From positions 1-64,000 of the forward strand of contig CAIVEI010000006.1 of the NCBI GenBank assembly GCA_903904835.1: DNA of 64,000 nt. Direction: 5' to 3'. Below, in pieces: positions 1,046 through 4,129 of the stretch. The notes below the pieces were generated by a model. That model saw nothing but the letters and a program-made list of their open reading frames with translations, did no database searches and had not been told where the DNA came from. This DNA comes from an uncultured Schlesneria sp. Lineage in GTDB: Bacteria > Planctomycetota > Planctomycetia > Planctomycetales > Planctomycetaceae. Position numbers and translations under genes: made by a program. The stretch's first letter is position 1; every line of letters begins with the position of its first letter.

Positions 1046-1174
1046 ACGAGATCGAATGCTAATGGGACTACATCCACATTTGGTCGTGGGTTCAACTCCC
1101 GCCGCGTTCTTTCAAGAACGCGTAGCTCAACGGTAGAGCAAATGAAATGTCTCATACCACCTTGTCGATCTCGT
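1046..1174 (+). ncRNA. yrlA: YrlA-type Y RNA 1 with permuted tRNA-like module
   Basis: Outer stem ACGAGATCGA (1046-1055)/TCGATCTCGT (1165-1174); inner stems ATGGGAC/GTCTCAT (1062-1068/1149-1155) and CATTT/AAATG (1077-1081/1140-1144); T-arm GTGGG-TTCAACT-CCCGC (1086-1102); 8-bp acceptor-like stem CGCGTTCT-TTCA-AGAACGCG (1103-1122); D-arm GCTC-AACGGTA-GAGC (1125-1139). Confidence 0.88.
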
Positions 1175-2908: not shown

Positions 2909-3039
2909 TAACCGTTCGCGGGCAATGCAGGGGGACAGACCCATTTGAAGGACAAACGATGAATCAGACTTGCGCTACTCAAATGTGTTCGTTGTTTTTC
3001 GCCATGAAAATGCGTCAGTCCCCGGCCCGTGAACGGTTA
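2909..3039. repeat. Large inverted-repeat/REP-like structured element between rtcB and rtcA
   Basis: TAACCGTTCGCGGGC (2909-2923) pairs with GCCCGTGAACGGTTA (3025-3039) with one G-T; nested GGGGAC (2931-2936)/GTCCCC (3018-3023) and CATTTGA (2942-2948)/TCAAATG (2979-2985). Confidence 0.75.
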
Positions 3040-3082
3040 TGCCGATGGTTCTGGACAGTCCAATCAAAGAAGGCCAGTTGCG

Positions 3083-4129
3083 ATGTCTGACATGATCTCC
3101 ATTGATGGTTCACAAGGCGAAGGAGGTGGCCAGATCGTCCGGTCATCGCTGGCGCTGGCGATGATCACCGGTCGCGGTGTTTCGATCGACAAACTGCGAG
3201 CAGGTCGAACGAAGCCCGGTTTAATGCGGCAACACCTGACCGCCGTTCGAGCGGCGGCGGAAATCAGTGGGGCCGAAATCACCGGCGATTCGATTGGTTC
3301 AACGTCCTTAACGTTTCGCCCATGCCAGGTGACTCCTGGCGAATATACATTCAGTGTCGGCACAGCAGGAAGTGCAACCCTGGTTCTGCAAACGGTTCTT
3401 CCCGCACTGCTGGTTGCCGACGGTCCATCACGTCTGATTCTGGAAGGAGGGACCCATAACCCCTGGGCACCACCGTTCGATTTTCTGTCCAAATCCTATC
3501 TCCCGATTGTCAATCGGATGGGTCCAAAAGTTTCTACATTTCTGGAACGACCGGGATTCTATCCTGCGGGAGGTGGTCGGTTTGTCGTGGAGATTGAACC
3601 GACACGGCAACTGAATCGTTTGTCCTTGCTACAGCGGGGATCGCTTAATCAGCGAACGGGCAGGATTCTGTTGTCGAATCTTCCGGAACAAATCGCCGAT
3701 CGTGAGGCCAAAGAATTACTGCGGCTGACGGGGTGGGAAAGAGATCGGATTTCGACGGAGCAAGTGGCTGCGCAAGGTCCTGGCAACATTGTTGTCCTCG
3801 AACTGGAATACGATGCGGTCACTGAAGTCTTTACAGGTGTCGGCGAACACGGCGTCAGAGCAGAAACCGTATCACGCCGCGCGGTCGATGCGATGCGAAA
3901 GTACCTCGCGGTAGACGTCCCCGTCGGTGAGTATCTCGCCGATCAGTTGCTGTTGCTCATGGGAATCAGCGCCTGGCAGAGGGGAGAAGAAAGTACGATT
4001 CGTACGACCGCGTTGACTCGACACTCCTCGACGCAGATTGACGTACTACGTCAATGCCTGGGAGTGACAACGCACGTCACTCGATTAGGGGAACACAACA
4101 CGGTTGAGGTTTCCGTGAAACGCCAGTAA
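3083..4129 (+). CDS. rtcA: RNA 3'-terminal phosphate cyclase RtcA
   Basis: 'IDGSQGEGGGQIVRSSLALAMITG', 'RAGRTKPGLMRQHL', 'EGGTHNPWAPPFDF', 'RPGFYPAGGG'. ATG placed at 3083; the ORF track start (GTG 3029) lies inside the inverted repeat. Confidence 0.94.
   Translation: MSDMISIDGSQGEGGGQIVRSSLALAMITGRGVSIDKLRAGRTKPGLMRQHLTAVRAAAEISGAEITGDSIGSTSLTFRPCQVTPGEYTFSVGTAGSATLVLQTVLPALLVADGPSRLILEGGTHNPWAPPFDFLSKSYLPIVNRMGPKVSTFLERPGFYPAGGGRFVVEIEPTRQLNRLSLLQRGSLNQRTGRILLSNLPEQIADREAKELLRLTGWERDRISTEQVAAQGPGNIVVLELEYDAVTEVFTGVGEHGVRAETVSRRAVDAMRKYLAVDVPVGEYLADQLLLLMGISAWQRGEESTIRTTALTRHSSTQIDVLRQCLGVTTHVTRLGEHNTVEVSVKRQ

Follow-up and report, generated by a model that had tools for sequence, protein, structure and literature searches.

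Is the transfer RNA (tRNA)-like part of a bacterial Y RNA always the passive mimic or tether that it is accepted to be, or could it be handled as a tRNA? The question is raised by the gap between rsr, the gene for bacterial Ro60, and rtcB-rtcA in an uncultured Schlesneria sp. (contig CAIVEI010000006.1 of assembly GCA_903904835.1). The window, i.e. the whole stretch of DNA that was analysed, comprises 64,000 nucleotides (nt), positions 1 to 64,000 of the forward strand. The gap encodes two Y RNAs, copy 1 at 1046-1174 and then copy 2 at 1183-1369. An earlier note on this DNA had correctly placed a Y RNA at copy 1, but its element ended at 1174 and the second Y RNA was overlooked. The tRNA-like part of copy 2 is without a loop cap and has the open end found in real tRNAs. 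On sequence comparison, this points to tRNA-like trimming, and perhaps aminoacylation, of some bacterial Y RNAs. The interpretation towards which we lean is that copy 1 is a classical closed YrlA RNA and that copy 2 is an open YrlA processed as a permuted pre-tRNA.

The closed copy

Copy 1 begins about 15 nt downstream of the end of rsr. Its parts are as follows (bp, base pairs):

1046-1174, + strand: Y RNA copy 1, closed YrlA, with a terminal 10-bp helix, Y stem and permuted tRNA-like module (RF02553, fold z-score, covariation)
1046-1055/1165-1174, + strand: terminal helix, 10 bp (sequence)
1086-1102, + strand: T-arm GTGGG-TTCAACT-CCCGC (sequence, fold)
1103-1122, + strand: acceptor-like helix, 8 bp (1103-1110/1115-1122), with a TTCA cap (fold; compensatory changes in the genus)
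1123-1124, + strand: UA linker between the acceptor-like helix and the D-arm
1125-1139, + strand: D-arm GCTC-AACGGTA-GAGC (sequence, fold)

The T-arm, D-arm, TTCA-capped 8-bp helix and 10-bp terminal helix all lie in 1046-1174 where the earlier note had put them, and its assignment to the YrlA class is borne out by the Rfam covariance model RF02553, which matches 1049-1174 over its full length (70.2 bits, E 4.6e-14; gathering score 69). YrlA is the sole Rfam family to reach its cut-off within the 64-kb window. The predicted fold is also far more stable than chance, with an RNAfold energy of -46.7 kcal/mol; dinucleotide shuffles gave -29.5 +/- 3.5 (z -4.9), and none of 200 was as good.

From seven copies of the genus RNAalifold predicted 38 pairs, and at 14 of these the changes are two-sided. 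A covariance model built from these seven copies recovered 122 Y RNAs in 49 sequences, and 113 distinct rows were scored. Two-sided changes occur at 37 of the 38 pairs, so that the compensatory covariation in orthologous rsr loci to which the earlier note had tied its claim is present. In this alignment, which was fitted to the structure so that the pairing and covariation figures lean towards it, 94.8% of cells were paired and the covariation score was 0.584, compared with 0.157 for shuffled and 0.05-0.07 for slid versions; the slid versions dropped to about 35-51% paired. The designation of 1046-1174 as a YrlA-class Y RNA is thus supported by the covariance-model match, the position between rsr and rtcB-rtcA, and covarying conservation in orthologous rsr loci. 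The circularly permuted order of the tRNA arms is already known for YrlA (PMC11472068), and copy 1 by itself is therefore a further member of a known family and not novel.

The open copy

Copy 2 differs at the acceptor end:

1183-1369, + strand: Y RNA copy 2, open form (RF02553 match 1191-1364; fold z -4.1)
1189-1197/1355-1363, + strand: terminal helix, lengthened by 1183-1187/1365-1369 (fold)
1235-1251, + strand: T-arm GTGGG-TTCGATT-CCCAC (model match, sequence)
1252-1259, + strand: acceptor 3' strand TAGCCCT (tRNA positions 66-72) and A73, then TT like the tRNA genes of this genome
1260-1305, + strand: spacer, 46 nt, with two hairpins, replacing the acceptor tetraloop (fold)
1306-1312, + strand: acceptor 5' strand GGGGCTG (positions 1-7), with a predicted RNase P site at 1305/1306
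1313-1314, + strand: U8-A9
1315-1330, + strand: D-arm GCTC-AGTGGATA-GAGC (model match, sequence)

The acceptor helix is exactly 7 bp and is followed by the unpaired A73; copy 1 has its 8-bp helix and tetraloop in this place. Copy 2 has the Y stem, conserved motifs, arm order and rsr linkage of a YrlA RNA, and also the arrangement of a permuted tRNA, in which the 3' half precedes the 5' half and a 7-bp acceptor with unpaired N73 surrounds a spacer. Its junction, N73-YU, is the lineage-typical tRNA 3' junction; in 33 of 42 tRNA genes of this genome N73 is followed by a pyrimidine and U. When copy 2 was compared with two genomes of the genus (G003 and G010), spacer identity was 0.16-0.23, against 0.77-0.82 for the tRNA-like core. 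Removal of the spacer would fit these values, because the spacer changes fast while the acceptor strands and core persist.

In a permissive scan, copy 2 matched RF02553 over its full length at 54.7 bits (E 1.7e-11), under the gathering score of 69. Below that score the Rfam YrlA model gives false matches that span adjacent tRNA genes (loci L011, L022 and L024), so automatic counts of sub-cut-off matches are unsafe. These false matches, together with weak matches in control genomes, give some footing to the explanation that the T-arm and D-arm belong to two neighbouring ordinary tRNA genes. For the window this is already refuted and its probability is practically nil: ARAGORN finds no tRNA in the window, and both elements adjoin rsr and have the Y terminal helix and motifs. 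Copy 2 has no anticodon arm, its place being taken by the Y stem. ARAGORN likewise finds no transfer-messenger RNA (tmRNA) in the window, where RF00023 matches the T-arm of copy 2 only (17.4 versus 47 bits).

Closed and open forms across bacteria

The stretch from T-arm to D-arm was measured in 118 non-identical YrlA-like RNAs, taken from planctomycetes class-wide and from 50 loci that were drawn from all GTDB species by a pattern leaving the acceptor free. YrlA RNAs linked to rsr split across bacteria into closed and open forms. The closed group is sharply defined, mostly 8 bp and a tetraloop, with the eighth pair formed in 95% and A73 in 7%. Open forms have 7 bp and a longer, variable spacer of up to 69 nt; where the spacer is at least 22 nt, pairs 1-7 are formed in 95-100%, pair 8 in 57% and pair 9 in 19%, with A at position 73 in 73%. 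The rsr gene lies on the same fragment for 47 of the 50 unbiased open matches, the remaining three being truncated. No open Y RNA with the exact pattern was found in viral contigs.

A further type of open-ended Y RNA (L087:810-958, L089:1737-1873, L091:1402-1540 and L115:207-355) has a D-arm and acceptor resembling another tRNA (GGGGCG-TG-GTGTAACGGCAGCAC). As this type resembles tRNA-Gln or tRNA-Lys, different Y RNAs may copy different tRNAs. Short Y RNAs with a Y stem and little or no D-arm are sited between closed and open copies (L006:1233-1313, L002:1696-1800, L079:913-1017 and L083:744-834).

The tRNA-type 3' junction and the alanine signature

At the 3' end, open forms match the tRNA genes of the lineage to which they belong: in Proteobacteria NCCA is mostly encoded, and in Planctomycetes N73-YU occurs without CCA. 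Of 73 open forms, 14 encode CCA exactly at positions 74-76, as does none of 45 short forms; at each of the next four offsets CCA occurs at most once. The encoded NCCA after a 7-bp acceptor is found in Alpha- and Gammaproteobacteria, one Polyangia and one Opitutales genome. For 17 of 20 genomes (exceptions at L160, L164 and L179) the Y RNA and the tRNA genes agree on whether CCA is encoded: the Y RNA encodes it in 9 of 11 genomes with mostly CCA-encoding tRNA genes versus 1 of 9 others (Fisher p 0.005, kinship ignored). Planctomycetes are mostly without encoded CCA; their open forms have A73 in 26 of 28 and YU right after N73 in 22 of 28.

A second signature is the G3.U70 pair, which is sufficient for alanyl-tRNA synthetase (AlaRS) to charge small helices. 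It occurs in 18 of 61 unique open cores, compared with 26 G.U among 366 at the other six acceptor pairs (p 3e-6, shared descent ignored), i.e. at about five times their odds. Seventeen of these 18 cores have A73, and pair 4 varies among G-C, C-G, A-U and G.U. Of 42 tRNAs examined from this genome, only the three tRNA-Ala types have G3.U70. The pair is present in G003 and G010 and absent from copy 2 of the window and its three closest relatives. Among culturable hosts, Lacipirellula limnantheis I41 (L198) has an open Y RNA with G3.U70 and A73 and lacks encoded CCA, and that of Erythrobacter longus DSM 6997 (L167) encodes ACCA. These tRNA-like features are seen in several phyla and with differing acceptor sequences, in counts that ignore shared descent. 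As judged from these sequences, alanine charging is a predicted property of only part of the open class. That open Y RNAs form a widespread, two-piece, Rsr-bound class with a matured CCA acceptor end, charged by AlaRS through G3.U70 in many lineages, is a possibility that we hold with more doubt than belief.

Several observations weigh against processing of the open form. Spacer lengths are broad (9-69 nt), with a middle range that is not cleanly open or closed. In two verrucomicrobial genomes the tRNA genes bear CCA but the Y RNA reads ACCU instead of ACCA; one Polyangia genome has the reverse mismatch. Copy 2 itself has G3-C70, G1.U72 and no CCA, and alanine charging is therefore not predicted for it. 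The tRNA-like ends could, moreover, be relics of origin. An alanine identity for copy 2 was rejected on its G3-C70 pair and because its halves are nearest to this genome's elongator tRNA-Met (20/25 and 21/25).

These points bear on the explanation that copy 2, like copy 1, is an ordinary YrlA RNA, its open end being a longer loop and its tRNA-like 3' junction an unprocessed relic of descent from a tRNA gene. The entire tRNA-like module resembles a tRNA, as such descent would have it; the breadth of spacer lengths suits a mere loop, and copy 2 has lost G3.U70 in four of the six genus members with the locus. Nevertheless, four features (A73, the YU trailer, NCCA and G3.U70) are retained across phyla in spite of turnover in the adjacent pairs and spacers, and closed sister copies in the same operons have lost all four. 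We therefore regard this explanation as rather unlikely.

A proposed maturation route

On the reading that copy 2 is processed as a permuted pre-tRNA, the rsr-rtcB gap would yield two Y RNAs made as a pair. The Y stem of copy 1 would bind Rsr, and its capped tRNA-like module would be a tether or mimic, as is known for the family and predicted here. In copy 2, the module would retain a genuine tRNA acceptor end about a spacer that can be excised, with its segments ordered like those of a circularly permuted pre-tRNA. The most likely course is cleavage by RNase P immediately 5' of G1 (1305/1306) and by RNase Z immediately 3' of A73 (1259/1260), with CCA added by the CCA enzyme. The result would be an RNA in two pieces, as in two-piece tmRNA, that has a tRNA 3' end; pairing in the Y stem and the acceptor helix would keep the pieces together. 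Closed copies would have no comparable end to free. We infer the cleavages, the addition of CCA, any charging and a role of the matured end for Rsr from sequence comparison. Candidate roles of this end are binding EF-Tu, the CCA enzyme or AlaRS, competing with damaged tRNAs, or passing RNA ends to the Rtc enzymes.

The open end might instead act unmatured, as a decoy for tRNA-end enzymes or tRNA-damaging nucleases or as a substrate of RtcA-RtcB. The operon link with rtcB-rtcA is in keeping with this, but agreement of an encoded CCA with the tRNA genes of the genome is not something that a decoy would need, and we consider this reading improbable. Sealing of the Y RNA ends into a circle by RtcB, as in algal permuted tRNAs, was considered, and no evidence for it was found.

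Comparison with known systems

Copy 1 is like known YrlA RNAs (RF02553; e.g. Salmonella YrlA, PDB 6CU1) in its terminal helix, Y stem, arm order, capped acceptor helix and rsr neighbour. Rsr binding, PNPase tethering and modification with D and pseudouridine are further YrlA traits. Copy 2 shares the stem, motifs and arm order, but is below the family cut-off and has an acceptor open at the tRNA-type end, with A73 and the 46-nt spacer. YrlB (RF02565) is likewise a second Y RNA, in operons of this kind; copy 2 is YrlA-like, and there is no YrlB match in the window.

Two-piece (circularly permuted) tmRNA likewise has its 3' half before its 5' half and an acceptor end with a removable spacer between them. 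It has in common with many open Y RNAs G3.U70 and A73, the former absent in the window copy. In contrast, open Y RNAs have no tag-coding part and no SmpB link, have a Y stem for Rsr instead, and their processing is predicted. Circularly permuted tRNA genes of algae and archaea have the same order with the spacer at the acceptor end, and a route through RNase P, tRNase Z and CCA addition is expected for them (PMC3978253). The open Y RNA has a Y stem in place of the anticodon arm and is not a decoding tRNA.

The literature searched, which did not include the founding YrlA papers, has no report of an open form whose tRNA junctions match the lineage, and nothing relevant on YrlA with CCA or alanyl was found in it. 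We provisionally consider the open form a new variant of YrlA. If a large subset of Y RNAs keeps a processable, possibly chargeable tRNA end, the role of the tRNA-like part becomes directly testable, and the association of rsr and Y RNA genes with rtcA and rtcB could in part be explained. Charging by AlaRS, if it occurs, would mean that the Ro60 particle carries an aminoacylated RNA end, and would connect aminoacyl-tRNA chemistry with RNA repair and quality control.

The locus and its surroundings

The neighbouring genes are as follows:

2-1030, + strand: rsr (bacterial Ro60), its 5' end lost at the contig start (Pfam vWA_Ro60 2.4e-17, TROVE 3.6e-5)
1396-2895, + strand: rtcB, RNA ligase (Pfam RtcB 7.1e-99); the ATG at 1411 is the likelier start
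3029-4129, + strand: rtcA, RNA 3'-phosphate cyclase, open frame (Pfam RTC 4e-75); the true start is probably further in

The combination of rsr with rtcB-rtcA is a known RNA-repair operon layout (PMC7790460). In six genomes of the genus the order at the rsr locus is kept, with a closed copy first and the open copy last; in one genome (G001) two closed copies precede the open one. Other relatives have Y RNAs at other positions around rsr.

It is probable that rsr, the Y RNA elements and rtcB lie within one operon. This location is what one would expect if there were no separate RNA and the helices were a cis-acting structured leader or spacer of an rsr-rtcB messenger RNA. However, YrlA is established as a trans-acting RNA, the Y-stem motifs and tRNA-specific loop bases are conserved, and the Y RNAs do not keep to this position in other relatives, so that a cis-acting element is highly improbable.

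In Caulobacterales and Hellea (L178, L182, L197 and L201), 2 to 12 tRNA genes are arrayed beside the open Y RNA at the rsr-rtcB locus. Two Acido-Lenti-1 RNA matches above the cut-off (L083:1203-1248 and 1353-1398) lie near a relative's rsr locus. The genome of the window has a second rsr gene (L117 / L149; G000:C21:43000-50000), upstream of which lie unusual tRNA-like genes in an array (Gln, Ile-TAT, Lys, Ile-GAT, Pro), as well as several short, repeated units that resemble Y RNAs (GGACTACAT ... CTTCGTTG); one unit (L117:4544-4708) is a weak model match.
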